From NCBI GenBank assembly GCA_028753945.1, contig JAPNXP010000016.1:1892001-1956000 (forward strand): DNA of 64,000 nucleotides, written 5' to 3'. Positions within the stretch are counted from its first letter, which is position 1, and each line of letters starts with the position of its first letter. This DNA is from Hexactinellida sp. DTS-2022. Its lineage: Eukaryota > Porifera > Hexactinellida. The notes under the pieces are model-generated. The model was given only the letters and a program-made list of their open reading frames with translations. It was not told the origin of the DNA and did not search any database. This document shows, piece by piece, positions 33,245-61,514 of this stretch. The translations under genes were made by a program, and so were the position numbers.

Positions 33245-35030
33245 TCAACATATTTTACCACTCATGTCTATATTCGGTGGCACCTTTGTTGTTTGGGAAA
33301 AGGCCCCGCTCTTATAAGTAGTGGCTCCTCGCTTCCGGGAGCGCTTCGACTGTTTTAGAGACCACCTACGCTTTGTATTTTCAATGCATTTTATACTAGT
33401 TACAATTCTCTCATTATCAAATTCTTTTATTAATTTATCAATTGAAATAAAACTGTTCAATCCTAAATTATTAATTATCCCTTGAAATCCAGCTACCCCC
33501 TCGTTGAAACGAATTATACCTAAACTGCATCCTAATTCCATCAAACTCAAATCGATCGGCTTAGTTTTGCTAATACAATCCCAAATCATCCCATGAAGGT
33601 CTCGTTTAGATTTGAGGTGTTACCACCCTGAACCTTTTCCAAAAATGACAAGGAAAAACAAGGAGCTAAAATTTCTAAAACACGATCCCTACAATCTAAA
33701 CTTATGCACCTGGGATGTTTTGGGATTATATCTCCCAAAGCTACGGCTTTCTGATATTTACAGAATGAATCAACACCCTTCTCACAATATTTATGCATAT
33801 CATTACAATTATCATCATTAGCGGCTAAATGATATATAATTCCCAACAAAGCTTGACGTAATTCAATTAGATCCCCACCTATCATACATTTTACAACAAA
33901 ACCATATAAAGATGTTACCCTATCTATTATGTTATCAGGTAAAAGATTAATTTCATTCGATACATCTATAAAATCGTCATCATCATCCCAATTATCTCTA
34001 CCTTTTTTCAAGTCTCTGAGCGTAGATGGCCTATACAGTTCCCTCACTTTTTTTTCCTGCGACTCAGTTTTGCATTTACTCAATTCATGTTGCGATAGTG
34101 TTTTTTGAGAAGCAATAAACTGTTTTTGTTTTTCTACTAAATGAATTCGAATCCTTATAGTAATATTAAATTCCCCGTAAATATCACTTTCAGCTAATAT
34201 ATTTATACTTTTATCATCACCATCCGCAATTACAGTAGAGTAAATCAATTTCTGTTCAATGGACTTACGAAAAATAACTGGTGGCTAATTTTGATTCTAG
34301 CGCAACCGAACTGTATTTACCATATTCTCGGGCCTGGCAATTCGATTCATGCATTTCTTTCCAAATCTTATATTCTACTAAATCTATTCGTTTTTCCCTT
34401 AGAGCTTGTTGCTTCTCAATACACAACTTACAACTATTACATGCAATTTCATAGCTTAGTACTTTTCCAGTTTCCACGGATATAGCACAAGCAATGCAGT
34501 ATCTAGAAAACCCACCCCCAGATTTCCCCCCCCCCCCTTTTTGATAAGCCCCATCATATGAAACAGTTACTTCTAAAAAATCAGATTCTGCCGTATTGTG
34601 TTTCTCCCTCAGTTCTAATGCAGCCCGGGTACAGCTTGCTTGTGCTACACCCGTAGCAACTTTAGATAAATATGCCTGAGTCTTGTAAAATGCCCTATTA
34701 GACAACGTTGAAGGTAAACCAATGAATGTATTTACCAAATCTAGTCTCGATTTACCAATGCCAGCTAATCTTCCAGCCAAAATTTGTAAAATATTATGGC
34801 CAAACTTTATTGTATTGTCCGTATCAGAAGGGGCACTATTCTGAGGGAGTGTATAAAAAGGAGTCGCTACCAAACACTGATCACAAACAATATAATAATG
34901 CAAGGCCAAACCATTATTGTACGACGTTCGATAGAAAGTCAGCCGACCTTTAATGCAAAACTTACATACTGAAACTTCCGCTAGTGCTCCCTCTAAAATT
35001 CCTATTTCAAAAGTGCATTCCCTTCTACTC
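33245..35030 (-). pseudogene. Mutator-like transposase, frameshifted
   Basis: Three minus-strand blocks in different frames make one protein of the Mutator-like transposase type common in invertebrate genomes: about 35030-34265 (a C-x2-C pair before GLALHYYIVCDQC, then VSYDGAYQKGG and an EIACNSCKLC cysteine cluster), 34248-33586 (IADGDDKS, then GVDSFCKYQKAVALGD) and 33589-33245 (IWDCISK, then ELGCSLGIIRFNEG). Shifts near 34258 and 33588 break it. The VSYDGA and IADGDDKS segments carry Asp residues in positions expected of catalytic acids. It is the body of the element whose leader ORF is at 35392-35712. Confidence 0.75.
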
Positions 35031-35391: not shown

Positions 35392-35712
35392 TTATTTAGG
35401 AGTTACAGAAGCAGTAAATACAAATGTACCTTGCGCTGTCTCGCCAAAATCAAAAGTCTTCGGCACCTCAATATCTTCCTCGGAACTACTAGTAGAGGGA
35501 TCCTTTCGAGGAGGTCCTGGATTCACCTCCACACCACCAACAATCAATAACAGTGTTATTACAGTGGCAACAAGAATTGTGGATATGCCCCACAAAACAT
35601 CCAAAGTCTGTACAAGACTAAAATTTAACTTCTTGGAACTAGAACTGGAAGACAACTTCACTCTTCCATTCCAACCTCCTATCCGGCCTCTCCAGGCCTC
35701 AATGGAAATCAT
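35392..35712 (-). CDS. Transposon leader ORF with 2A-like motif (106 aa)
   Basis: Short minus-strand frame directly upstream of the Mutator-like transposase. Residues 42-58 are a hydrophobic helix, followed at once by GGVEVNPGP (59-67), matching the 2A-like ribosome-skipping motif D-[VI]-E-x-N-P-G-P except for Gly in place of Asp. 2A-like peptides are known at the N-termini of ORFs of several animal transposable elements; here one precedes a DNA-transposon protein. The C-terminal 40 residues are Ser/Glu-rich. The frame ends three bases before the next in-element ATG. The Asp-to-Gly change may weaken skipping. Whether it was once fused to the transposase frame is unclear. Confidence 0.55.
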   Translation of the reverse strand: MISIEAWRGRIGGWNGRVKLSSSSSSKKLNFSLVQTLDVLWGISTILVATVITLLLIVGGVEVNPGPPRKDPSTSSSEEDIEVPKTFDFGETAQGTFVFTASVTPK

Positions 35713-36899: not shown

Positions 36900-39800
36900 T
36901 TATACACTTGATATGACGGGTCCTTTTCTAGGCTTAGGAAGGTTCAAAGGAAGAGCAACTTTTTCTCTCGCAGCGGTATGATACGACACACCTTGTGATG
37001 TGAAAATTGTGTATGTAGGATGTGGCGAGAATACATCTTTCACAAATGGATTCCTGATGGTATATGCAAAGAAGAACACAACACCGATAGGTCCATTCAA
37101 CAGTAGGAATAACCACTCGAAAACTATAGTCAATGTGTTCAGGCGAATGAAATAATTACAGACTGCATTGACAACTAAAAAGAACCAGGGCAGTCCTAGA
37201 ATAGAGATTAGCACTAGAAATTGTACATATAGTGCTCGGTACTGTAAGTAGAAGGCACTACGTGATTCATTAGTTTGTGTGAATGACATTTTATGTGGTT
37301 TGATCCTCCAGCAGAGCTTCATGGTGAGGTAGATTAGAGCTAATACGTTGAGTGCTAACAGTAGCAGAATGGGGCATAGCATACCCCATGTAGAATAGGA
37401 AGGTGGACCACTAGACAAGAAACAAGTCGAATTCCGGACCATGGATTCATATTGGACATAATTATTTGCAATGTCCGGTAATGAAGCGCATAACGTGACA
37501 ATGCAAGGTAACACAGGGAAACCCCATCCAAATAAGAAGTAAAGAATGAAACACCTTAATTGGCCACCAATTTTTTCTTCCCGAAAGAATTGTACCATCA
37601 CAATTCCTATGCAGAGACTCCAAGTAAACACAGCAATCCAAGCGTACTGTGTAACGAGAGAAGCTATGACGCAATAATGGTTGTTCAGTACAGCGTATGG
37701 GAGAATGAATATGAAGACGCTACATCCCAATGTCAATGCTATGGCATAATTGAAATATATCAAGTTAGGCAGACTACAGAAGAATCTCTTCCCAGCAAAG
37801 CAGAAGAGTATTAAGGAAATAGAGAGTGCTAGAAACGACATCGACAACAACACAAAACTGAACATTTTAGAAGCTAGGTTTTCTGCTCGTTCAACTGGAC
37901 GATTGAAACTGACGATTGCCGCGAATGTAGTGAGATGAGTAGTCGCACATACAATGATAGATTCGTTAAAATTAACTAAATTCAGGCCAGTTGTATTGAT
38001 TCCATTCGTATCTTTGAAAGAAATGCATACAGGCGGAACTTTGTCAATGTTTCGGAAACTGTGGGGAAACGAGATGTCAATTGGCTGTACTAGCACAAGA
38101 TTCCCCACGCTGCTTGATTGTGGTAAATGGACATTGAGTGAAATAAATCCAGTTGTACCAGTCTCCTCAATGACTGCTAGGCTCAGGTTGTATGTGATTG
38201 AAGAAATGAAGAAAGATGTTACATTGCCCTGTGTTGCAATCTGATTCAATACAGAAAAAGGGATGTATGCAGTTGGGGAGAGTTGGTTTGAAATTTGAGA
38301 TCTATTTGGAATATTAATATCAGATTCTAGCATTGCCACATCCACACTTTCAAGATAAACTTGTATTCTTTCAGATATTATAATTTTCGGAGCTTGATTT
38401 GCTTGTAGCCCTTGTGATACAGTGTTTATATAGTTTTCAAGCGTAAGAATGAGGGACACGAGTGTTGAGGGGATTTGGCTTGATTCCGTGTTAGTAGAAT
38501 TTGCTGGTCTAATGCGCACTACCTCATTTATAATAGTGGAAGCTAGAGCAATAAGACTGTTGGTTACAGCTTCATCTTGTGCTGTTATTGGATCGATACT
38601 TTCGGTTATTCTTTTAAATTGTTCAATTATATTCATGATCGATTCTATGGTCATTGAATTTGAATTTATTGAATCTATTTGGTTGTTAATATCTGTAATT
38701 AATTCACTTGTAACATTGCTAGGTACTGTAGGAGTAGAATAATATGTATTTGAGATACCATTTGTTGACGGATGTATGCTGGTTATTGTGAAGGCATCTA
38801 GATAAATAACAAAAACACCTAACTTATGCTAATAATATGCATAAGAGTCAGTTTTATACTCTGTCTTCACAAATAAAGCTGTGCGTGCATTGAGTACGGG
38901 CGCTTTGCCAAGTTGCCTTTATGATATAAATAACCTTTTTGCATTCCCAACATTTGAACCCTTGACAGCAATTTCATTCATTAAATGTTATCCCGCTACC
39001 TAACCACACATAATTTCCAATATATAATAGGGTAAAAATCATAGTATTCTCTAAGAATTTAAGCCAAATCTTATTTTTGAATTCAAAAAAGACTGTTTAT
39101 ACATCACTGTATATAATACTATAATATTACTAAGTAATTTGGTATATGTTAATACCCTAATCTGTCTAATGAGTCATGAAGAATCTTTTACATAGTACAA
39201 ATAAATGTTATTACTTTTACTTTTGCACCAGTGATGGACATTGAGGGAGCACACATTTTTGGTAAGCTCACGAGCGCGATCAGGATTTATAGGACGAATG
39301 ACATAATATTAATATAACTAGTATAACTAACTGCAGATAAAACAGGGGGGGGGGTCAATCTTAAGAATACTAACCCATAGGTGACTTCATGGAAAAATAT
39401 ATTTTTAGGGCATACCCCCCCCACCCCCCCTCACGAAGTACCAAGTACTTAACGAATTTATTGCTTTTGGACCCCTACACCCATTCAGTATTTGCCACAA
39501 GTGACACTCTGGAGTTGTCACCTGTGTCAGATTAGCATAAATTGATACGAAGTTAATTACATCTGGTCTCCGAAGTCCTCCTATGAGCATTTTTACCCAA
39601 AACACACTTTTTAAATTTTTTACAATTTTAATTAGTCAGCAATTCTCACCTTTAGGTGTGATAAGATTTAAAAAAATTACCCTTAGTGTAAATTCTTGAT
39701 AATTTGCAGCAAAATTTCGCAATATTGATATTGTTTCGTACCCTCCATGAAGTACCAGGTACTTCATGGATGTACCTTTCAAAATGGGACCCACCACCTG

Positions 39801-42253: not shown

Positions 42254-45200
42254 TTATTTTATCTTCTGAGGAGACTTCAAGCTGTTGACGCTCCTCAGTA
42301 TCTCGTTTTGGTCCTGTAATTCCTTGATGATTATCCGGAGTTGATCATCTTGACCCTCGTTCTCATTAGCGATGCATCGCGCTACATTTTGAGGGAAGAA
42401 GATAGTCTCGTCATCTTTCAGTTTCTCGAACACAAATCCCTCAATAGCAGTGTGGTCACATGGATCGATGCTATCTAAATACAAGAAAAAGCTTAAATAA
42501 TCCCACATGTTATGCTCATTATTCACATGATTCCGGAATCCAGTGCCCTTGCGGTCGAAGACATAGTTTTCCAAGCCACAAATGAAACAATAATTTTTCA
42601 TATCTTTTTCTTGTTCACTCTTCTCGTCTCTTAGCTGAGAGAATGTGTCCACAATGATACCGAAAACAATGTTCAACAAAATTGTATTCACAACAATGAA
42701 GAAGAGTAGGTCGTATATAATGCGGTCCAATTCACCAGTGAAACTCATTGACCTCTGTGGAATGAATTGGCCTATTGTATCAAGGAGACCCCAACGACCA
42801 ATCGTGACAAAGCATTCATAAAGAGTATGGCAGAAGATATAGGCTTCGCTATCTGGGTTTATCGTTGATTGTGCCTGTATGGAGAATAGTGCAAAACCAA
42901 TTACACCGAAAATGTATAAAATGATGCAACCGAAAAAGGCTACGAAAATGAGCGATTTCCCATTTTTAGTGACAGCTAGTAATACACGTCGAAGTATATC
43001 ACTCAATTCCAACACGTACAATAAACAGATAGGATAAAGATATCCACGTAAGGGCAGTGAAAGTAATGAAGAGAGGAAAATAATGCACATAAATGCAACC
43101 TTGGATCCAAAAATGTTAATTTTTAAGTATTTGGTACCCTTTGGATCTTCCCATTTGAACTTATATTTCAAAGTCGTATGATAACTGATGGATCTAATGC
43201 GATGGAATATATCCGGGATGTAAAAGTTTTTCCAATTAACGATGAAGAATAGAATCAGAAGATCGAGTGCCATAATGAGGTGAATGGCTCCAATTGGGGA
43301 GAAAACGTAATTGTACCAAAATGGGACAATAGGATAAAGGGGAAGAGTTAAGGTTGAGTTTGGAGTTTGTTCATTGCAGTCATAAGTTACGATGCCATTA
43401 ACTTCGGTTGTGGTAACACTGCCACAGGGTGTGTACCATGTCGCTAATAGAAATAGATTAACAACGAAAGTCCAAAATAGGAATAGTCCTTGTCTGAATG
43501 ACTGAAATTTGATGTATTCCTTAATAAACTTATTGTCGCGTAATTTTTTAGAGTAATCTTCTGTCTCTTTAACAGCCTTGAACCATTCTAAGAAATCTCT
43601 GAGTTTGTCCTCTGGAGATTGTCGATTGATTCCCCATTTCACAGCTTCTACTACGTCGTTAGACGCTGAATTGCTGCATTTAAACCGAACCTTATTCAGA
43701 ATGGTTTTTTTATCGTCAGTTTCATATACAATTTCGATAGAGCGTGTATTCTTTTCACAATGAACCCAGGCCTTATTGGCTTTGGAGTTTGTTTCCACAT
43801 CTGGTGCTTTTGCTAAACGATCTTGGTCTGTTTTCGAAACTGTATCAAAATCTTTAGAGTGTAGAATAAAATGATAGAGTTGAAACATGTAATCTTCAGC
43901 AGTTGTTCGAACTTTCTGATCCTGGCATTCTTTTCCAAATTTTATTTCATGAAGACGCCCTAATACACAGTGTATACTATCAATATTGATCAAATTGTAT
44001 AGATCTTTCGCCAAATCCTTTGTTCCCATGCTAGTTTCTTCCATAATACTTTTAAGAAACAAAATCATTGACTTGTACAAAGCTACTTCTTGTTCCACTT
44101 CAATACCTTTTTGAACTGGGCCTTGGAAAATATGATTGACAACATCGATTATTCTAGCATCGAATGCTTCCATTTTATTCGAATAGTTCCCATCAATGAA
44201 TTCAATAATTGTGCTAAAAACTTCCGTGACCAAACTTATGTTATATTTGGTAATCTCTGTATAGACATCCTTCAAGAAATTCACTGCTTTGGAGATAATG
44301 TTGATATTTTCTCCACCGTTGTCTTGTTTACGGAGATAATTTTGCATGAATTTGCAATGACCATCACACATAAGCCCCAACAGCTTAACTGCAACTTCAA
44401 TCTTTCTCAATCTGTTCTTCTTTGTTATTTTCTCTGTTAACATTTTTTCTTCCAATAATTTGTTTTCCTTAGATCGTAGTTCTTCCGTAGTAATAGTAAA
44501 AATATTCTCTTGGCCATTTTTTTTCGATGACATTAACTCCACCCCCTCGTTACAAAATAGTAGATCATTTTCCGTAATATCATTTGTGATATTATTATCG
44601 AGTAGATCATTATCCGTAGGAACTTGGATGTTATTATCGACCACCAAAGTATCTAAATATCCCCTCATTTTCTCAAAACAAAGTATATTCTTGTCTACTT
44701 GAATCTTTAGTTTCCGATTTTCTTTTATAGTACTTCCCCCATTGTACAAAATTGCACTCATTCTTTCTAAAAACTTTCCTTCACTCGAATCTGCAAGGCA
44801 CCGCAACTTTTCTTGTATAGTTACATTTCCTCCGTAAAGCATGTCGATGAGTAGTGCAATACTCTGGAATGAAACAGGCTTACAAGGATGACTGGTCAAC
44901 GTTAACACAATTGATGTAGTTTTATACAAGTTTGCGATATCATTCTGAATTTTCACTACCTTTTTCAATTGACTATGGTACTCTTTCAGGTTTTGTGTTT
45001 TCAAATCATCATCAATGTGTCTGATTTCGTTAAGAATCGCTCCACGCAATAATTGTAATGATTTTAAGTCAAGGCTTTCTTGTTTAACTTTCTCTCTTTC
45101 ATCCATTTCATAGTAGTTTTCATAGGAGTATTCAAGTTGTTTGACGATACTTATGAACAGTTTATCATTATCCACACTACAACCATCTTTTGTGTGTTCG

Positions 45201-48200
45201 AAGAACAATCCCAAATGTATTTGAAATGCTGGACCGAGGGGCATCGAATCAAGAGCGGGATAATTGCCCGATTCATCGAGAAATATGGAATATTTTTCTT
45301 TGCTTGGAGCTTCAATTTGAACTTTAGCAGTATTTTCTCCCCAGTAAGCTCTTCGCATATGTTTTGCGTAATTGTTGAATTGTTCATTCAGCAAAATTTC
45401 TCCTTTGTACTTTCGATTGTATTCAACTAATGAGTGAGGAACGAAATTCTCTTCATCATCTACCAACCTTCTCAATTCAATGAGTTTTTCATTGTCTACT
45501 CTGTTACTTCTTTGTTTTGAGAGAACATTCTTGATAGCATCATTAGTTAGAATTGATAATGGTGCTGTGTACAAAAGTCTAGCTTGGTTTTTCGTTTCGA
45601 TAAATGGTTGAAACATTATTGCCAGATCGATGAGGTTATTGCAAATATTCATTGTTGTGTTGATATTTCTTTTTTTAGACTCGCCATCATCTTCTGTATC
45701 AATTGAAAAGTAACGTGTGTAGAATACAATGATTATTGGAAGGATACCCTTCAAAAGATAATCACATATCGATTCAAATGAATAGATATCTTCATGGGGC
45801 GTGGTGAGTTGTAATTTCGGCTTCAATAATGTTTCATCTTCATTGATATTTGCTTGTCTGAAATTATAGCGGTCTTGATTCGAAAGAACTGTTACGAGTG
45901 TAATGAAATTTTCTAATAAGGCATTGGATTTCATTAGAAAGGGCCAAAATTGTGGTTCATTTTGGATACTAATATCATACATTGTTGGCATTTTATCTGT
46001 ATTCAGATACACCCAGTTGAAGAATGAGGCAAATTGAAACTTTCGTGAATATGGTATATCTGTATTATTCAGAATATCCAAAAGTTCATAGACTGATATC
46101 ATGGACTGGCACACAGATTCATGGTGTTGATTCTCTCCTTCACAAAGGGAGGCCATCAAATCGAAAGTAGAGAGCATTACTTCCAATTGCATTAACTCTT
46201 CCTCATTAAGATCGTTTGATGTAAGTAATCTATTTCTCAAATCCATTTTATGATTACTAGCACCTAGGAACATGTCGATATCGTTGGGTTTATTTTGCAT
46301 GAAGCTTTTCATAATTTGTATTTGATTAATGTGAACCGGAAGGTCGATTTCCTCGACTTTTGCGATTGCTTTTAGAATTTCAATGATTGGAGCTATATTC
46401 TGTGATAATAGGTTTTCTTCTGGCTTCATTAATGAACAGATTAATCTAATTTCTTTAGGTTTGATGTTCATCACAATTACCTCTGCACCAGTAAATATTT
46501 GTGTAATGAGATTTCCAAGCTCTACTGGAGCTAGTTTAAATAGGTATTCCGAAGCTAATATCTCAAGGCGGTTGTACAATCTATTCTGTATCTGTAGGTT
46601 ATCCTTGGCTAAATGTTGGAGTAAGGTGCAAGACACTGCCGCTAGTTCTCTGATGTCATCCTTTCCTACAGTACTGGTTGTTACAGTACCACACTCTTCT
46701 TGAAATTTCTCCAATATGTTCAAAACATCCTCAAAAAGTCCAAAGTTAAAGAAAATCTTTTGGTTTTGTCGATGTGGTCTTGTTGGATATTCGGAGAGTC
46801 TGCAAGCCCTTATACATTCTTTTAATATTCCAATTAATTCAACGCGTTTATTGGGGTTGGTAAATGAGGATTTGAGTAGTCGACGGAATCTAGGAAGTTT
46901 TTTTTCAAAACTTTTGAACAATTCAACTGAAGACTGATTAGTTAGTGCTTGAGCTTGGATAGCTTTCATGAAGAGGTCATTTTCAGTACTGTACTTGACA
47001 TTCAATAAATGGAGAGCTCTCACAGACAGTTCACGATCTTTATATCGTGTGAGATCCAATAGAATCGATTGAAATGAGTCAGTTCCTTCGTTTTTCTCGT
47101 ATTCATATGATGTAGTTGCGATTATTCTGCTATTTAAATGATTTCTTAATTTATGTGTCAAGTCTATCTTGTCTAAGAGCACTTTTTCACTATGAAGATC
47201 ATTTAAGTGATGGGCAAGACTGTGACCATGTTCAAAGATTGTTCTTCTATTACTCGTGTCTTCAAACTGTTCTCTAAATTCTCGATAGCAGGACAGCATC
47301 AGCTTTAACCTTCGATGCTTTCGAAGGTTCATGAATAATTCGAAAACACGTAGACATTTTTTCTTGATATCAATTATAGGGGCGTTACTTTCATTTTTCT
47401 GATATCTTCCTTCAGTGATAAATGTTTCATTAATCGATTGGTCGTCATTTGGTATAATTTTATTTGATGAGGATCTGTCGTTAAGCCCATTAAGGATGCG
47501 TAATAATGGACATAAGATATTATTGATATCTTTTAGGTATTTATAATACCCGAACTTTACAAATAATAATAATACATCGAGGACTGATGCAGTGAATCGG
47601 TTCATATGTATGAATTCTTGATGACAATTGATTTTTAAATGTTCGAAATAGTCTTTCAACCAATATTTTATTTTCTCAAAATGCGCATTCCATTCTCCAC
47701 TTAAAGCGACTATTTTTGATTCGCTATCATGTTCTTCAATAAATTCCTTACATTCATCAAAAATGAATGTTAGTGTTAGATTCTCCAGGATTGGCCTATT
47801 AGATCCCACATCAATATACATTGTTGAAAGGAGCTCTGCAAACTTTCTCCTTATCTTGGGGTGGATATGCTCATCTGTCATACCTGAAAATATAATCTCG
47901 AATGGAAATTTATTCGTTAGCATAGTTATAGCTTCTTTATTGTTCCCCTTACATAAGTTAGAAAGGAAATCCAATTGGCCCATGAGGAAGTCAATAGATT
48001 GTATATTAATTGATTGGTCGCTAGCTGATAATTCAATGGATTGGTCGCTAACTGATAATTCAATTGAATCGTCGATTGGTACATATTCTGATAGAGGTTT
48101 ATAGTGTTTTCCATCTGTTAATGGTGAAGTGGCAATGAGCTTAGGATATTCTTCATCAGATTTGTCTAATCTCATGTTAAACATAAAATCTTCTACAGGA

Positions 48201-50242
48201 CTCTCCGACAGTCGTTTGGCAAGAGTTAATTGGTTATTTTGGAATTGACTCTTATTTGTGACACACATAACGCCGAAATAATAAAAGATTTGAGGGATTT
48301 TGCAAACAGCTAATTCGTTAAATAACTTCTCAGTAAGTTCTTGAAAACGTTTGCTTAAACCTTTTATGATCGTATTGTTATCACGAATCAGTTCAATAAG
48401 CGTTTGTTCAGCATTTATGCCAAGCCCAAATTGGTCTTTGAAACTATCAATGTATTTAGCTGTGTAATTCTCGTTTTTTCGACTATGCCCCGTTAGATAT
48501 GCTTCAATAACGGTATATACCATAAGTGTCGTGCTTTTGCGTATTAAATAATCTTTTGATTCTGCTTCCCTACCTCTTTTTCTTCTGAATCTCTTCTGTA
48601 TTTCCATCAGAAGTTCTATGATCCCAAGATTCCGGAGAAGTTTCTGTCTATTTTTCATATCTTTTGGATTCGGTGCGTTTTGCATCCAGTTTGCTAATGA
48701 GTTGAGAGATTGTTCAATTTCTCTTGTTATCTTGGGACGATCATATGTCACAAGATAGTCTTTGATGACAGATATGTATCCCATGGCATAGTGGAAATAT
48801 TCCAAGAGTTGTTCATCAACCATTTCCAGTTTATACGCGTCATGAAATCCCTTTGAAAGTTCCAGGTTTATTTGATAACAGCTGGCATCATCCCATTTAA
48901 TTCCCCTCGTCACCAATTGCTCCGCATCTGGAAATTTTCCCTGAAATTCTTCTTTGGTCCCCTTAACCCATGTTTTAGTTGCTGGGTGATAAAGTCGTGC
49001 GCAGTTTCCGAACTTGATCAACTCATCTTTCAACTTTCCCCTACCTTTATCAATGAAAGGAGTGAAATGGAATTGTGTCCTTTCACCTGAAATGTCATCA
49101 GCCAGATTAATGAGCTTCATTTGGCACTCGTCATCGATTGCTTCTATAGAAAGATACCTTTGAGTCAACATGTGTTTGATACGACAGGGTTCACCATACT
49201 TCAATACATCTCCGGATATAGGAGATTTAGTATTTTCAACCTGCCAATAGGTGATTGCGGAAGTTGAAGGTGCTTTCAGATTTCCTAGCATCATTTTTCT
49301 CGCTCGCAGGTGTACTTCGTCTGTTATCACCTCTTTTCCTTGATCCCATCCCGGACCCGGTGCTACCACGTAGCATTGCACCTGAAGATGGTAGAGTCTG
49401 ATGACTGAACCACCTCGTATGTTGTTCACATCATCGTTTTCATTGTTCAATCTGATATGGGAGTAAATTGTGAATATGGAATCTTCAGCAGAAGCATTGA
49501 TCTCTTTGCCTTCAAAGAATGAGTCGCTTTTTTTAATTTCGCTATAGTGAAGATATTGTTGACATTTCACATTTTCAAGTATAATTTCATCCTCGATGCG
49601 AACTTTGTCACCAATTGCGCGTACTTTGTATTTTGGTGATATTTTGAACTGGACATGCTCTCCGTTAGTATCGAATATGGAAACTTTGAGAAGAGTTCTA
49701 TCAACAATGCTAGTTTGGCTATCACTGACTCCAAGATATTTCCCTGAATAGTAATGTTGTAGTTGGATTACTTTTCCATATGTTATTTTCATTCCTAGAT
49801 GCTTTTTGTGGCGGTTTCTGTTTTTTTCAGCTTCATCTTTAGCTTCACTTTCAAATTTGGAGAGAGTTTCATCTTCTGCCTTCGAGATTCTCATTTTATT
49901 TTTATATGATATTAGCTCTTTTTCAGCAATGCACAGATTTGGGTACAACACACGGAACGCAGACATATGCAAATCGGGTAGAGGATTAGCATTTTCTCCG
50001 TAGGAAAAATCGTCTAGTTTAACAATCTGATGGAACGGACTGCTTATGTAGGAATTTACCATTTGGATTAATTTGTTCGCTCCTACTTTTCCAACTAGGT
50101 AGATGCTGTCACCGTAACGAAGTGACTCCTGATAATGTGTTGAAAGTGATCTTTGGGATTGATCAATCTCGCTCTCGATATCTATGACTGAGTTTGTAGG
50201 AACCCGATCAGCTAGTTCCGACGAACTATGTATATTTAACAT
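42254..50242 (-). CDS. IP3-receptor-like channel, single exon (2662 aa)
   Basis: Start taken at ATG 50242; the codon before it is TTG. Order: N-terminal trefoil from LRYGDSIYLV (about 40-110), MIR-type trefoil region (about 150-450), RIH/armadillo region, long middle part, channel domain (about 2220-2545), then CFICGLENYVFD with C2552, C2555, H2572 and H2577, the zinc-binding linker typical of IP3 receptors, and EHNMWDYL. Length is normal for the family. In the ligand core, K534, R537, R588 and K589 match human K508, R511, R568 and K569, but the T267-G268-R269 loop reads R-K-M. The filter GGGVGD is replaced by GLLDTIGQF at about 2485-2493 (DNA 42764-42790). The normal products release calcium from the ER; conduction by this one is doubtful. 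Intact over 8 kb, so under selection or very young. Confidence 0.92.
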   Translation of the reverse strand: MLNIHSSSELADRVPTNSVIDIESEIDQSQRSLSTHYQESLRYGDSIYLVGKVGANKLIQMVNSYISSPFHQIVKLDDFSYGENANPLPDLHMSAFRVLYPNLCIAEKELISYKNKMRISKAEDETLSKFESEAKDEAEKNRNRHKKHLGMKITYGKVIQLQHYYSGKYLGVSDSQTSIVDRTLLKVSIFDTNGEHVQFKISPKYKVRAIGDKVRIEDEIILENVKCQQYLHYSEIKKSDSFFEGKEINASAEDSIFTIYSHIRLNNENDDVNNIRGGSVIRLYHLQVQCYVVAPGPGWDQGKEVITDEVHLRARKMMLGNLKAPSTSAITYWQVENTKSPISGDVLKYGEPCRIKHMLTQRYLSIEAIDDECQMKLINLADDISGERTQFHFTPFIDKGRGKLKDELIKFGNCARLYHPATKTWVKGTKEEFQGKFPDAEQLVTRGIKWDDASCYQINLELSKGFHDAYKLEMVDEQLLEYFHYAMGYISVIKDYLVTYDRPKITREIEQSLNSLANWMQNAPNPKDMKNRQKLLRNLGIIELLMEIQKRFRRKRGREAESKDYLIRKSTTLMVYTVIEAYLTGHSRKNENYTAKYIDSFKDQFGLGINAEQTLIELIRDNNTIIKGLSKRFQELTEKLFNELAVCKIPQIFYYFGVMCVTNKSQFQNNQLTLAKRLSESPVEDFMFNMRLDKSDEEYPKLIATSPLTDGKHYKPLSEYVPIDDSIELSVSDQSIELSASDQSINIQSIDFLMGQLDFLSNLCKGNNKEAITMLTNKFPFEIIFSGMTDEHIHPKIRRKFAELLSTMYIDVGSNRPILENLTLTFIFDECKEFIEEHDSESKIVALSGEWNAHFEKIKYWLKDYFEHLKINCHQEFIHMNRFTASVLDVLLLFVKFGYYKYLKDINNILCPLLRILNGLNDRSSSNKIIPNDDQSINETFITEGRYQKNESNAPIIDIKKKCLRVFELFMNLRKHRRLKLMLSCYREFREQFEDTSNRRTIFEHGHSLAHHLNDLHSEKVLLDKIDLTHKLRNHLNSRIIATTSYEYEKNEGTDSFQSILLDLTRYKDRELSVRALHLLNVKYSTENDLFMKAIQAQALTNQSSVELFKSFEKKLPRFRRLLKSSFTNPNKRVELIGILKECIRACRLSEYPTRPHRQNQKIFFNFGLFEDVLNILEKFQEECGTVTTSTVGKDDIRELAAVSCTLLQHLAKDNLQIQNRLYNRLEILASEYLFKLAPVELGNLITQIFTGAEVIVMNIKPKEIRLICSLMKPEENLLSQNIAPIIEILKAIAKVEEIDLPVHINQIQIMKSFMQNKPNDIDMFLGASNHKMDLRNRLLTSNDLNEEELMQLEVMLSTFDLMASLCEGENQHHESVCQSMISVYELLDILNNTDIPYSRKFQFASFFNWVYLNTDKMPTMYDISIQNEPQFWPFLMKSNALLENFITLVTVLSNQDRYNFRQANINEDETLLKPKLQLTTPHEDIYSFESICDYLLKGILPIIIVFYTRYFSIDTEDDGESKKRNINTTMNICNNLIDLAIMFQPFIETKNQARLLYTAPLSILTNDAIKNVLSKQRSNRVDNEKLIELRRLVDDEENFVPHSLVEYNRKYKGEILLNEQFNNYAKHMRRAYWGENTAKVQIEAPSKEKYSIFLDESGNYPALDSMPLGPAFQIHLGLFFEHTKDGCSVDNDKLFISIVKQLEYSYENYYEMDEREKVKQESLDLKSLQLLRGAILNEIRHIDDDLKTQNLKEYHSQLKKVVKIQNDIANLYKTTSIVLTLTSHPCKPVSFQSIALLIDMLYGGNVTIQEKLRCLADSSEGKFLERMSAILYNGGSTIKENRKLKIQVDKNILCFEKMRGYLDTLVVDNNIQVPTDNDLLDNNITNDITENDLLFCNEGVELMSSKKNGQENIFTITTEELRSKENKLLEEKMLTEKITKKNRLRKIEVAVKLLGLMCDGHCKFMQNYLRKQDNGGENINIISKAVNFLKDVYTEITKYNISLVTEVFSTIIEFIDGNYSNKMEAFDARIIDVVNHIFQGPVQKGIEVEQEVALYKSMILFLKSIMEETSMGTKDLAKDLYNLINIDSIHCVLGRLHEIKFGKECQDQKVRTTAEDYMFQLYHFILHSKDFDTVSKTDQDRLAKAPDVETNSKANKAWVHCEKNTRSIEIVYETDDKKTILNKVRFKCSNSASNDVVEAVKWGINRQSPEDKLRDFLEWFKAVKETEDYSKKLRDNKFIKEYIKFQSFRQGLFLFWTFVVNLFLLATWYTPCGSVTTTEVNGIVTYDCNEQTPNSTLTLPLYPIVPFWYNYVFSPIGAIHLIMALDLLILFFIVNWKNFYIPDIFHRIRSISYHTTLKYKFKWEDPKGTKYLKINIFGSKVAFMCIIFLSSLLSLPLRGYLYPICLLYVLELSDILRRVLLAVTKNGKSLIFVAFFGCIILYIFGVIGFALFSIQAQSTINPDSEAYIFCHTLYECFVTIGRWGLLDTIGQFIPQRSMSFTGELDRIIYDLLFFIVVNTILLNIVFGIIVDTFSQLRDEKSEQEKDMKNYCFICGLENYVFDRKGTGFRNHVNNEHNMWDYLSFFLYLDSIDPCDHTAIEGFVFEKLKDDETIFFPQNVARCIANENEGQDDQLRIIIKELQDQNEILRSVNSLKSPQKIK

Positions 50243-50582
50243 CAAGATTTATTTTCTTCTTTCTCGTTAAAAGCTTGCTAATTAATTTTAAAAATAAATT
50301 GATTAATCTTTTTATACGTAATTTATATACGTAGTGTATAAATTCGCAATCATGTAATATATTCTTGGCAACTATTTATGCGTTAGTGTTTATGCGTTAA
50401 TTAACGATAAAATTTTGCATATTTGACCCTAGATTTCCATTAATTACAATGATATTTGTGGAGCAGTTAAATTTAAGGTCAAATACAATAAATATAATTT
50501 ACTGAATTTTGTGGCAATGAAAGCTTACAATCTAGGCTAAAATACAATCTAGATATCTGATATCAATTCACCTTTAAAGTAT

Positions 50583-54355: not shown

Positions 54356-57300
54356 TTAGACAATTGAATTGATGGGGGCTTTCCTAGCCTTAGGAAGGTT
54401 CGAAGGAAGAGAAAATCGCTTTTCTCTCGCAGCGCTATGATACGACGCAGCTTGTTGTGATGTGAAAATTGTGTATGTAGGTTCTGACGAGAATAAATCT
54501 TTCACAAATGGATTCCTGATGGTATATGCAAAAAAGAACACAACACCGATAGGTCCATTCAACAGTAGGAATAACCACTCCATAAATATAGTCAATGTGC
54601 TCTGGGGTATGAAAAAATTACAGACTGCATTGACAATTAAAATGAACCAGGGCAGTCCTAGAATAGAGATTAGCACTAGAAATTGTACATATAGTGTTCG
54701 GTACTGTAAATAGAAGGCACTACGTGATTCATTAGTTTGTGTGAATGACATTTTATGTGGTTTGATCCTCAAACAGAGTTTCATGGTGAGGTAGATTAGA
54801 GCTAATACGTTGAGTGCTAACAGTAGCAGAATGGGGCATAGCATACCCCATGTAGAATAGGAAGGTGGACCACTAGACAAGAAACAAGTCGAATTTCGGA
54901 CCATGGATTCATATTGGACATAATTATTTGCAATGTCCGGTAATGCAGCGCATAACGTAACAATGCAAGGTAACACAGGGAAACCCCATCCAAATAAGAA
55001 GTAAAGAATGAAACATCTTAATTGGCCACCGATTCTTTCTTCCCGAAAGAATTGTACCATCACAATTCCTATGCAGAAACTCCAAGTAAACACAGCAATC
55101 CAAGCGTACTGTGTAACGAGAGAAGCTATGACGCAATAATAGTTGTTCAGCACAGCGTATGGGAGAATGAATATGAAGACGCCACATCCCAATGTCAATG
55201 CTATGGCATAATTGAAATATATCAAGTTAGGCAGACTACAGAAGAATCTCTTCCCAGCAAAGCAGAAGAGTATTAAGGAAATAGAGAGTGCTAGAAACGA
55301 CATCGACAATAATACAAAACTAAACATTTTAGAAGCTAGGTTTTCTGCTCGTTCAACTGGACGATTGAAACTGACGATTGCCGCGAATGTAGTGAGATGA
55401 GTAGTCGCACATACAATGATAGATTCGTTAAAATTAACCAATACCAGTCCAGTTGTATTGATTCCATTCGTGTCTTTGAAAGAAATGCATACAGGCGGCA
55501 CTTTGTCAATGTTTCGGAAACTGTGGGGAAATGAGATCTCAATTGGCTGTACTAGTACAAGATTCCCCACGCTGCTTGATTGTGGTAAATGGAAATTGAG
55601 TGAAATAAATCCAGTTGTACCAGTCTCCTCAATGACTGCTAGGCTCAGGTTGTAGGTGATTGAAGAAATGAAGAAAGAAGTTACATTGCCCTGTGTTGCA
55701 ATCTGATTCAATACAGAAAAAGGGATTTGTGTAGTTGGGGAGAGTTGGTTTGAAATTTGAGATCTATTCGGGATACTAATATCAGATTCTAGCATTGCCA
55801 CATTCACACTTTCAATATAAACTTGTATTCTTTCAGATATTATAATTTTCGGAGCTTGCATTGCTTGTAGCCCTTGTGATACAGTATTTATATAGTTTTC
55901 AAACGTAAGAATGAGGGACACGAGTGATGAGGGGATTTGGCTTGATTCCATGTCAGTAGAATTTGCTGGTCTAACGCGCACTACATCATTTATAATAGTG
56001 GAAGCTAGAGCAATAAGACTGTTGGTTACAGCTTCATCTTGGGCTGTTATTGGATCGATACTATTGATAATTCTCTCAAATTGTTCAATTATATTCATGA
56101 TCGAATCATTGGTGATTGAAATTGAATTTATGAATTCGATTTGGTTACTAATATCTGTAATTACTTGACTTATATTATTGCTTGGAATACTCGTTGTTAG
56201 ATTGGTAATGTTTGGGATACTCGTTGTTAGATTCGTAATGTTTGGAATACTCGTTGTTGGTAGATTCGTAATGTTTGGAATACTCGTTGTTGGTAGATTC
56301 GTAATGTTTGGAATACTCGTTGTTGTTAGATTGGTAATGATTGGGATACTCGTTGTTGGTAGATTGGTAATGTTTGGGATACTCGCGCTCGATGTTGTTA
56401 GATTCGTAATGCTTGGGATATTCGTTGTTGGTAGATTCGTAATGTTTGGAATACTCGTTGTTGGTAGATTCGTAATGCTTGGAATACTCGTTGTTGGTAG
56501 ATTGGTAATGCTTGGAATACTCGTTGTTGGTAGATTCGTAATGCTTGGAATATTCGTTGTTGTTAGATTCGTAATGCTTGGAATACTCGTTGTTGGTAGA
56601 TTGGTAATGTTTGGAATATTCGTTGTTGGTAGATTGGTGATGCTTGGAATACTCGTTGTTGGTAGATTGGTAATGCTTGGGATACTCGTTGTTGGTAGAT
56701 TCGTAATGTTTGGAATATTCGTTGTTGGTAGATTGGTAATGCTTGGAATATTCGTTGTTGGTAGATTGGTAATGTTTGGGATACTCGTTGTTGGTAGATT
56801 CGTAATGTTTGGAATATTCGTTGTTGGTAGATTGGTAATGCTTGGAATACTCGTTGTTGGTAGATTCGTAATGCTTGGAATACTCGTTGTTGGTAGATTC
56901 GTAATGTTTGGAATATTCGTTGTTGGTAGATTGGTAATGCTTGGAATATTCGTTGTTGGTAGATTGGTAATGTTTGGAATATTCGTTGTTGGTAGATTCG
57001 TAATGTTTGGAAAACTCGTTGTTGGTAGATTCATAATGCTTGGAATACTCGTTGTTGGTAGATTCGTAATGTTTGGAATATTCGTTGTTGGTAGATTCGT
57101 AATGTTTGGAATATTCGTTGTTGTTAGATCGGTAATGTTTGGAATATTCGTTGTTGGTAGATTGGTAATGCTTGGAATACTCGTTGTTGGTAGATTGGTA
57201 ATGCTTGGAATATTCGTTGTTGGTAGATTCGTAATGTTTGGAATATTCGTTGTTGGTAGATTCGTAATGTTTGGAATACTCGTTGTTGGTAGATTCGTAA

Positions 57301-60300
57301 TGTTTGGAATATTCGTTGTTGGTAGATTGGTAATGTTTGGAATATTCGTTGTTGGTAGATTGGTAATGCTTGGAATACTCGTTGTTGGTAGATTGGTAAT
57401 GCTTGGAATATTCGTTGTTGGTAGATTCGTAATGTTTGGAATATTCGTTGTTGGTAGATTCGTAATGTTTGGAATACTCGTTGTTGGTAGATTCGTAATG
57501 TTTGGTATACTCGTTGTTGGTAGATTCGTAATGTTTGGAATACTCGTTGTTGTTAGATTCGTAATGCTTGGAATATTCGTTGTTGGTAGATTCGTAATGT
57601 TTGGTATACTCGTTGTTGGTAGATTCGTAATGTTTGGAATATTCGTTGTTGGTAGATTCGTAATGTTTGGAATACTCGTTGTTGGTAGATTCGTAATGTT
57701 TGGAATACTCGTTGTTGTTAGATTCGTAATGTTTGGAATATTCGTTGTTGGTAGATTCGTAATGTTTGGAAAACTCGTTGTTGGTAGATTCATAATGCTT
57801 GGAATACTCGTTGTTGGTAGATTCGTAATGTTTGGAATACTCGTTGTTGGTAGATTCGTAATGTTTGGAATATTCGTTGTTGGTAGATTCGTAATGTTTG
57901 GAATACTCGTTGTTGGTAGATTCGTAATGTTTGGAATATTCGTTGTTGGTAGATTCGTAATGTTTGGAATATTCGTTGTTGGTAGATTCGTAATGTTTGG
58001 AATATTCGTTGTTGGTAGATTCGTAATGTTTGGAAAACTCGTTGTTGGTAGATTCATAATGCTTGGAATACTCGTTGTTGGTAGATTCGTAATGTTTGGA
58101 ATATTCGTTGTTGGTAGATTCGTAATGTTTGGTATACTCGTTGTTGGTAGATTCGTAATGTTTGGAATATTCGTTGTTGGTAGATTCGTAATGTTTGGAA
58201 TACTCGTTGTTGGTAGATTCGTAATGTTTGGAATACTCGTTGTTGTTAGATTCGTAATGTTTGGAATATTCGTTGTTGGTAGATTCGTAATGTTTGGAAA
58301 ACTCGTTGTTGGTAGATTCATAATGCTTGGAATACTCGTTGTTGGTAGATTCGTAATGTTTGGAATATTCGTTGTTGGTAGATTGGTAATGCTTGGAATA
58401 TTCGTTGTTGGTAGATTGGTAATGTTTGGAATATTCGTTGTTGGTAGATTGGTGATGCTTGGAATACTCGTTGTTGGTAGATTGGTAATGCTTGGGATAC
58501 TCGTTGTTGGTAGATTCGTAATGTTTGGAATATTCGTTGTTGGTAGATTGGTAATGCTTGGAATATTCGTTGTTGGTAGATTGGTAATGTTTGGGATACT
58601 CGTTGTTGGTAGATTCGTAATGTTTGGAATATTCGTTGTTGGTAGATTGGTAATGCTTGGAATACTCGTTGTTGGTAGATTCGTAATGCTTGGAATACTC
58701 GTTGTTGGTAGATTCGTAATGTTTGGAATATTCGTTGTTGGTAGATTGGTAATGCTTGGAATATTCGTTGTTGGTAGATTGGTAATGTTTGGAATATTCG
58801 TTGTTGGTAGATTCGTAATGTTTGGAAAACTCGTTGTTGGTAGATTCATAATGCTTGGAATACTCGTTGTTGGTAGATTCGTAATGTTTGGAATATTCGT
58901 TGTTGGTAGATTCGTAATGTTTGGAATATTCGTTGTTGTTAGATCGGTAATGTTTGGAATATTCGTTGTTGGTAGATTGGTAATGCTTGGAATACTCGTT
59001 GTTGGTAGATTGGTAATGCTTGGAATATTCGTTGTTGGTAGATTCGTAATGTTTGGAATATTCGTTGTTGGTAGATTCGTAATGTTTGGAATACTCGTTG
59101 TTGGTAGATTCGTAATGTTTGGAATATTCGTTGTTGGTAGATTGGTAATGTTTGGAATATTCGTTGTTGGTAGATTGGTAATGCTTGGAATACTCGTTGT
59201 TGGTAGATTGGTAATGCTTGGAATATTCGTTGTTGGTAGATTCGTAATGTTTGGAATATTCGTTGTTGGTAGATTCGTAATGTTTGGAATACTCGTTGTT
59301 GGTAGATTCGTAATGTTTGGTATACTCGTTGTTGGTAGATTCGTAATGTTTGGAATACTCGTTGTTGTTAGATTCGTAATGCTTGGAATATTCGTTGTTG
59401 GTAGATTCGTAATGTTTGGTATACTCGTTGTTGGTAGATTCGTAATGTTTGGAATATTCGTTGTTGGTAGATTCGTAATGTTTGGAATACTCGTTGTTGG
59501 TAGATTCGTAATGTTTGGAATACTCGTTGTTGTTAGATTCGTAATGTTTGGAATATTCGTTGTTGGTAGATTCGTAATGTTTGGAAAACTCGTTGTTGGT
59601 AGATTCATAATGCTTGGAATACTCGTTGTTGGTAGATTCGTAATGTTTGGAATACTCGTTGTTGGTAGATTCGTAATGTTTGGAATATTCGTTGTTGGTA
59701 GATTCGTAATGTTTGGAATACTCGTTGTTGGTAGATTCGTAATGTTTGGAATATTCGTTGTTGGTAGATTCGTAATGTTTGGAATATTCGTTGTTGGTAG
59801 ATTCGTAATGTTTGGAATATTCGTTGTTGGTAGATTCGTAATGTTTGGAAAACTCGTTGTTGGTAGATTCATAATGCTTGGAATACTCGTTGTTGGTAGA
59901 TTCGTAATGTTTGGAATATTCGTTGTTGGTAGATTCGTAATGTTTGGTATACTCGTTGTTGGTAGATTCGTAATGTTTGGAATATTCGTTGTTGGTAGAT
60001 TCGTAATGTTTGGAATACTCGTTGTTGGTAGATTCGTAATGTTTGGAATACTCGTTGTTGTTAGATTCGTAATGTTTGGAATATTCGTTGTTGGTAGATT
60101 CGTAATGTTTGGAAAACTCGTTGTTGGTAGATTCATAATGCTTGGAATACTCGTTGTTGGTAGATTCGTAATGTTTGGAATATTCGTTGTTGGTAGATTG
60201 GTAATGCTTGGAATATTCGTTGTTGGTAGATTGGTAATGTTTGGAATATTCGTTGTTGGTAGATTGGTAATGCTTGGAATACTCGTTGTTGGTAGATTGG

Positions 60301-61514
60301 TAATGCTTGGGATATTCGTTGTTGGTAGATTGGTAATGCTTGGAATACTCGTTGTTGGTAGATTCATAATGCTTGGAATACTCGTTGTTGGTAGATTCGT
60401 AATGTTTGGGATACTCGTTGTTGGTAGATTCGTAATGTTTGGAATATTCGTTGTTGTTAGATCGGTAATGTTTGGAATATTCGTTGTTGGTAGATTCGTA
60501 ATGTTTGGAATATTCGTTGTTGGTAGATTCGTAATGTTTGGAATATTCGTTGTTGGTAGATTGGTAATGTTTGGAAAACTCGTTGTTGGTAGATTCGTAA
60601 TGTTTGGAATACTCGTTGTTGGTAGATTCGTAATCCTTGGAATACTCGTTGTTGGTAGATTGGTAATGCTTGGGATACTCGTTGTTGGTAGATTCATTGT
60701 GTTTGAGATATTAATCGTTGCCGAACTTGTCGTGTTTGATGTGAGGCCATCTAAAAAAAATATCATACTTACAGTACCTGAGCAATGAGCATATGTTGAG
60801 TCATAGGGCGATGTTTCAGTAGATATATATAATATCCCGCTTCAAATACTTGGGGTTGGGAGGGGGGGGCAATTACTAAGCCATTCAATTATAATACTAG
60901 TTGCAATACTTGTTTTATTTCTACTATTCATCTGAAGTTTAGTTATTCTAACGTTAATTATCGCGAAAATATGCTGAAAATCATTCAATTTAATCATGTG
61001 AAATTTAATTAACTCTTACTTCATCGTTCGATATGAGCAAACATATCGGTAACACGGTGTGACCAATTAATGGACATGTTTTATTAATTATCTTGTGTGC
61101 GGATTATGTGCAGGGGCGGCATACCCGTACGGCTGGTGCGTCGAGCTCCGTACCACTTTTCAGGATGGCCAGCTTTGCTGTACCACCTCTATCTGTTCTA
61201 ATTTAAACAATTCACTGATAATTTAATGATTTAATGATCGGCGGGCCACATTCAAGTAGTGTAAAATTCTCCGCCGTACCACTTTTCGAAAGGCTTAATT
61301 GTTAATTGTTTTCACGCTTTTGAAAATGTGAGAAGTGGGAAATTTCGAGTGGAAAGCTTTTTGGAATTTGTTCAGTTACTTCAATCAACTCGGAACTTTC
61401 AAACAAATGTACATATATATAGCCTTATTAATTGTATCGATGAGTCTTACCAGTTGATTGCAGGCACACTTCAAGGATGATTACCACTACCAGATAAATA
61501 TACTTTAACTTCAT
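54356..61514 (-). CDS. Adhesion GPCR with giant repetitive mucin-like stalk, two exons (2152 aa)
   Basis: Exon 1 (61451-61514) encodes signal peptide MKLKYIYLVVVIILEVCLQS and ends in phase 1 at GTAAGA. Exon 2 (54356-60750) starts after TTTTTTTTAG. About 1,500 residues follow, made of 11-residue units LPTT[NS]IP[NS]ITN; those reading PNIT contain an N-glycosylation sequon and all are Thr/Pro-rich. Then come the same GAIN-like region, GPS-like VCATTHLTTF and 7TM as the gene at 36900, with GWGFP. Expected on the cell surface with a long glycosylated stalk; ligand unknown. The two receptors share the phase-1 intron, signal exon and promoter motifs, so they are duplicates. The stalk array is absent from the first and must have expanded or been lost after duplication. 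Confidence 0.92.
56180..60710. repeat. 33-bp coding minisatellite with 1,815-bp higher-order repeat
   Basis: About 137 units of 33 bp (plus strand AATACTCGTTGTTGGTAGAT then TCGTAATGTTTGG). Marker variants recur at exactly 1,815 bp = 55 units: the AAAACTCG unit at 57011 and 58826, and at 57770 and 59585; the GGTGATG unit at 56631 and 58446. The correspondence runs from about 56530 to 60310, i.e. two copies plus the start of a third. Confidence 0.95.

Follow-up and report, generated by a model that had tools for sequence, protein, structure and literature searches.

The window, a stretch of 64,000 nucleotides from contig JAPNXP010000016.1 of the glass sponge Hexactinellida sp. DTS-2022, contains on its minus strand a gene for a protein resembling IP3 receptors (IP3Rs; Table 1). 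The gene is a single-exon, uninterrupted frame at positions 42254-50245 that encodes 2662 residues from the ATG; its translation P0001 has 2663 residues counted from a leading TTG, with the ATG one codon later. The open frame bears out the sequence-only reading, an earlier reading made from the letters alone, which had described an intact 2662-residue protein. An hmmscan search against Pfam identifies Ins145_P3_rec (93.3 bits, cut-off 23), MIR (50.7 bits, cut-off 25.6), RIH_assoc (PF08454, 65.5 bits), and Ion_trans (38.8 bits). RIH (PF01365) is not listed by hmmscan for the window protein or for its paralogue C8a and scores 48.3 bits in the paralogue C18; in the genome search it is detected at the window locus at 40.9 and 31.9 bits. 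Hydropathy analysis of the window protein reveals S1, S2, S3, S5, and S6, and an extra weak peak at residues 1491-1509.

Comparison with solved structures places the window protein closest to ITPR2 (247.8 bits, as against 164.9 bits for the top ryanodine receptor, RyR), with IP3R scores exceeding RyR scores at both the N-terminal and the C-terminal ends and with 39% identity to ITPR2 from the pore to the C-terminal region. Features of a RyR are lacking: the protein has 2662 residues versus about 5000, and contig C8, on which it is encoded, has no SPRY match. The window protein and animal IP3Rs (ITPR1-3 and C15, an IP3R gene of the same genome) are alike in domain order (Ins145_P3_rec, MIR, RIH, RIH_assoc, Ion_trans), in length (about 2660 residues), and in the zinc linker and S6 gate. 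They differ in that the window protein is without GGGVGD, has an altered beta-trefoil IP3 loop, and is encoded by an intronless gene, whereas C15 is split. A single-sequence AlphaFold model of the channel domain (mean pLDDT 43.5, pTM 0.22) was too poor to use and was discarded.

Table 1. Features of the IP3R-like gene, in positions of the window
Feature	Position	Strand	Basis
IP3R-like gene, single exon, ATG to stop, 2662 aa	42254..50242	-	open frame; two intact paralogues
RARKMML (RTTGRQS in IP3R1), beta-trefoil half of IP3 pocket; T267 to R, R269 to M; then three-residue insertion, S274 aligned to P	49286..49306	-	alignments
KNRQKLLR and HSRKNENY, ARM1 half of IP3 pocket; K508, R511, R568, K569 kept; R504 to K, Y567 to S	48464..48655	-	alignments
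MCDGHCKF and IIEFIDG, E1978- and E2042-equivalents (D and E), RIH_assoc region	44189..44371	-	by eye; numbering provisional
S1 to S5 region; peaks at residues 2254-2272, 2319-2337, 2375-2397, 2433-2451; no separate S4 peak	42893..43486	-	hydropathy
Pore helix FCHTLYECF	42809..42835	-	phmmer alignment, motif reading
GLLDTIGQF in place of GGGVGD filter; residues 2486-2494 of P0001	42764..42790	-	phmmer, MAFFT, motif search
S6, IIYDLLFF to NIVFGIIVDTF; D2570- and F2586-equivalents kept, I2590-equivalent is V	42641..42721	-	pore alignment
Zinc-finger linker CFICG to EHNMW, kept	42503..42589	-	phmmer alignment
DHTAIEG, T2654-equivalent of Ca2+ activation site	42437..42457	-	by eye; numbering provisional

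Our alignments confirm that the GGGVGD filter is replaced in the window protein. Specifically, phmmer aligns GLLDT--IGQF with GLRNGGGVGDV of ITPR2 (PDB chain 12ad_A) across a two-residue gap, MAFFT places the same two-column gap at the filter, and a motif search finds no occurrence of GG[GA][VIL] or G[GA][GA]xx[DE] anywhere in the window protein or its two paralogues. The sequence-only reading had placed this replacement, about two residues shorter than the filter, at 42760-42800, a range correct to a few bases, and had named a normal GGGVGD elsewhere in the protein, or an assembly error, as grounds for abandoning it; the motif search excludes the former, and the latter is very unlikely, given that C8a reads RWGLLDTIAQF and C18 reads RWGLIETVAVI at the same place. 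The match to the ITPR2 chain extends through YDLLFF, NIVFGIIVDTF, CFICGLE, and EHNMW, in agreement with the earlier description of the following helix, zinc linker, and EHNMW as kept.

In the gapped pore alignment (residues given for the window protein/C8a/C18), R2544 is replaced by L/L/I, S2545 by D/D/E, and D2551 by Q/Q/V, and G2546 and G2547 are deleted; an alignment of the loop made by eye without the gap has D/D/E at S2545 as before and I/I/L, again not acidic, at D2551. At the gate, F2586 is kept, and V occupies the position of I2590, as it does in C15. The ungapped counterpart of GGGVGD, TIGQFI, is identical to TVAVIL of C18 at 1 of 6 positions, as against 92 of 119 other S5-S6 positions (Fisher p 0.004), although the S6 hexamer VVNTIL is equally low (1 of 6) and the hexamer comparison is that of one sequence pair. 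The flanking segments RWGL, PQR, and DRIIYDLLFF are kept between the C8 and C18 proteins.

A search of the genome assembly (112.4 Mb, 18 contigs) reveals at least seven release-channel loci, the same seven being retrieved with the window pore (at least 8 matches), RIH_assoc (at least 8), RIH (at least 11), and the C15 pore (at least 9) as queries; several loci give two matches. Ins145_P3_rec as sole query retrieves five of the seven and misses C15 and C11. Three of the loci are intronless, filter-less IP3R-like genes: the window gene, C8a, and C18. C8a lies 49 kb from the window gene on the same contig and the opposite strand, and its protein is 81% identical to the window protein (92% over the last 382 residues). 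Over its whole length the C18 protein is 51% identical to the window protein; identity rises to 62% within the channel part and to 74% within S5-P-S6. The filter site reads LLDTIGQF in the window protein, LLDTIAQF in C8a, and LIETVAVI in C18.

The other four loci comprise two IP3Rs and two RyR-type genes. C15 is an IP3R with GGGIGD, the canonical receptor that the sequence-only reading had proposed to seek in the same genome, and C11 (C11:1157096) is an IP3R with DGGIGD, having Asp at the G2546 position; both are split by introns, with no 250-residue frame in the 33 kb and 23 kb stretches examined. C10 (C10:857577) is a RyR with GGGVSD, whose pore scores 269 bits to RyR3 and 137 bits to IP3R1. 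C13 (C13:40884-41567) is RyR-like, and its filter reads GGTLNL, with the equivalents of R2544, D2551, and D2570 lost. SPRY gives 11 matches in the genome, four in C10 and C13 and the others elsewhere, none on C8. C13 resembles the window gene in having lost the filter and the equivalents of R2544 and D2551, but differs from it in being a RyR by its SPRY domains and tree branch and in its replacement sequence; since that sequence differs, C13 probably lost its filter independently, as a second such case in this genome. The filter is therefore lacking in four of the seven loci found (one a RyR), and exact GGG[VI]GD is present in one of the seven; the earlier description of a loss in a single protein was right about the loss and too narrow in its scope. 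Pattern searches of bacterial/archaeal and viral collections, which were not meant to include animals, gave 42 and 5 matches, respectively, none of them confirmed by tblastn.

The three-gene lineage is maintained with intact frames, and the C8 pair is under purifying selection. The C8 pair has dS 0.24, dN 0.107, and dN/dS 0.44 over 2624 codons; dN/dS is 0.15 in S5-P-S6 (11 synonymous and 6 replacement changes) and 0.79 in the 38-codon pore loop, the latter from only four changes (three replacement, one synonymous), with one replacement in the filter-site hexamer. That the three genes are decaying retrocopies or an assembly artefact is very improbable. They are intronless where C15 and C11 are split, and the dN/dS of 0.44, like the pore-loop value on its four changes, is fairly high, as retrocopies would lead one to expect; but a glass sponge is described in the cited part of PMC10282587 as having many genes of a single exon, and each of the three loci holds its own intact frame of about 8 kb, with a shared motif. 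Moreover, both C8 frames are free of stops, whereas neutral simulation yields 61 on average at distance 0.24 (500 runs, none below 43) and 32 on average at distance 0.107 (300 runs, none below 17); on these grounds a pseudogene was rejected. The 15 whole-codon indel runs between the C8 copies were discounted, as a protein alignment can reveal no other kind.

Synonymous divergence between the C8 copies is uneven. Fourfold sites differ at 0 of 59 positions in codons 2251-2400 and at 13 of 39 in codons 451-600, a pattern suggestive of gene conversion in part of the channel region. Because of this unevenness, the 92% identity between the two copies there is not independent evidence of pore conservation, and the argument for it is carried by the comparison with C18, in which synonymous sites are saturated or nearly so: over the whole gene they are saturated, and the sole finite value, 0.08 for S5-P-S6 (dS 2.25), is unreliable.

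The window protein retains part of the IP3 pocket. Read by eye and with provisional numbering, its Ca2+ activation site would have D at the position of E1978, E at that of E2042, and T at that of T2654, while N1981 and Q2045 differ. This site and nine IP3 contact residues were taken from PMC9663519. Four of the nine IP3 contacts are identical (K508, R511, R568, and K569), and these four belong to the ARM1 half of the pocket; K stands in for R504, and the residues at T267, R269, S274, and Y567 have changed. R269W is described as lowering IP3 binding in IP3R1 (cited passage of PMC7939385), and, because of this and the four changed contacts, ligand sensing can be proposed only with reserve.

We favour, tentatively and at a little short of an even chance, a reading in which the three IP3R-type genes, all intronless and lying on C8 (two) and C18 (one), form a maintained lineage whose protein conducts Ca2+ poorly or not at all and acts as a gate-moving scaffold or regulator. 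The protein would sit in the ER membrane as a tetramer, may still respond, perhaps weakly, to ligands from the cytosol (Ca2+ as well as IP3 or a related phosphate), would pass little or no Ca2+, and would serve not as a release channel but in buffering, in ER contacts, or in damping canonical receptors. What assembly and gate movement require looks intact (hydrophobic segments, gate, and zinc linker), and part of the ligand site remains; the ion-selecting part is not the known one, as the filter motif is absent in all three paralogues. Poor or absent conduction is favoured because the replaced stretch is poorly conserved and because, in mammals, one substitution at such a position is enough to kill the pore: in the passages cited, D2551A of IP3R1 is pore-dead and G2546A abolishes Ca2+ flux (PMC8149723), and G2498S of IP3R2 likely has a dead pore (PMC7939385). 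The sequence-only reading had suggested a non-conducting, differently selective, or regulatory subunit; its premise, an intact protein with the filter lost, stands and now extends to a lineage under purifying selection, and the proposed function agrees with the published mutants and may hold. We hold the favoured reading as a whole less firmly because only four of the nine IP3 contacts are identical.

Some observations point the other way. An acid persists at the position of S2545, one of those that line the published filter, and the loop may therefore be rebuilt and not dead; S5-P-S6 is conserved with C18 well above the overall identity, and the gate positions, which a non-conductor could do without, are kept. 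It is thus possible, if on balance improbable, that the protein is a conducting channel whose acidic ring lies at the position of S2545 (GL[LI][DE]T) instead of D2551 and whose selectivity is altered, for example, to favour monovalent ions. All three paralogues have D/D/E at the S2545 position and none has an acid at the D2551 position, and RWGL, PQR, and DRIIYDLLFF are common to C8 and C18. In the cited portion of PMC8149723, the side chains of S2545 and D2551 define the filter, and D2551E gives monovalent preference. The same portion describes R2544, which is lost here, as the partner of D2570; moreover, ETVAVIL of C18 is hydrophobic and without Gly, and the replacement hexamer shows low conservation.

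It appears unlikely that the protein joins the canonical IP3R of C15 or C11 in mixed tetramers, as a subunit with a dominant-negative or tuning effect. A canonical IP3R exists in the same genome, and mammalian IP3Rs are described in the cited sections of PMC7939385 as heterotetramerizing, with 2:2 assemblies of wild type and filter mutant partly functional and binding-deficient subunits dominant-negative. However, identity to C15 and C11 reaches only 33-38% from the pore to the C-terminal region, and tblastn with the three proteins (E 0.01) gives no match outside the channel region in the C15 and C11 stretches examined; co-assembly is doubtful for these two reasons.

In a short, unrooted tree of nine pore to C-terminal sequences, the three filter-less genes share a long branch, of 1.26 substitutions per site, placed between the IP3R group (support 55) and the RyR group (support 100). 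A tree of this kind would be compatible both with a fast-evolving IP3R and with a third class of ER release channel-type proteins in animals, distinct from IP3Rs and RyRs. That the genes form such a class, with a loop of its own (RWGL[LI][DE]T...PQR) whose acidic ring at the position of S2545 gives a new selectivity, is rather unlikely and is offered as speculation.

Partial precedents exist outside animals. Capsaspora owczarzaki, a close relative of animals, reportedly has a second IP3R paralogue, IP3R-B, that is unresponsive to IP3; it resembles the window gene in being a second IP3R paralogue and differs from it in the site of the defect, which is said to lie in ligand binding and not in the filter. 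In metazoan IP3Rs and RyRs, GGG[VI]GD is described as conserved (cited passages of PMC3213138 and PMC7399828), and oomycete IP3R homologues retain GGGIGD or GGGLG(G/S) (PMC7399828, same passages). The passages of PMC3213138 on Paramecium give three CRC channels with the full filter and others with its core or variants. CRC groups III, V, and VI are, like the window protein, six-TM proteins of IP3R/RyR type with variant filters: CRC-VI has practically no similarity to the filter, and CRC-V has a shortened distance from the pore to TMD6. Unlike the window protein they belong to a ciliate, and CRC-III is without the central RIH domain; the comparison is by description only (PMC3213138). Among the papers listed in searches of the open-access literature, none describes an IP3R or RyR lineage of animals that lacks the filter, which is a weak negative.

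The glass sponge syncytium carries action potentials that are suggested, in the part of PMC10280926 cited, to be calcium-driven, which makes its unusual release channels interesting for physiology. An animal lineage maintained without the filter would constitute a natural experiment, pointing either to selected jobs beyond Ca2+ conduction or to an alternative construction of the pore.

TGF-beta, the fibrillar collagen domain (COLFI), and nuclear receptor zinc fingers, none of them known outside animals, are matched in the genome four, two, and two times, respectively. In this it resembles published glass sponge genomes, which are described in the cited part of PMC10280926 as small, without Wnt, and with TGF-beta and ryanodine receptors present; our Wnt search of the genome gave no match, and its control likewise gave none. 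Among 32 papain-family matches, six were read, and in none of these is the active-site Cys replaced by Ser, the mark of silicatein. Within the window, the minus strand encodes, at 36900-38654 and 54356-60766, two seven-TM-like proteins that closely resemble each other and bear a GPS-like motif; they appear by eye to be adhesion GPCRs, have no Pfam match, and one of them carries a very long stalk of NIPNITNLPTT repeats. The minus strand also carries a fragment of a Mutator-like transposase at 34268-34909 (PF20700, 76.9 bits) and, at 35392-35712, a short frame with VEVNPGP, which by eye resembles a 2A-type peptide.
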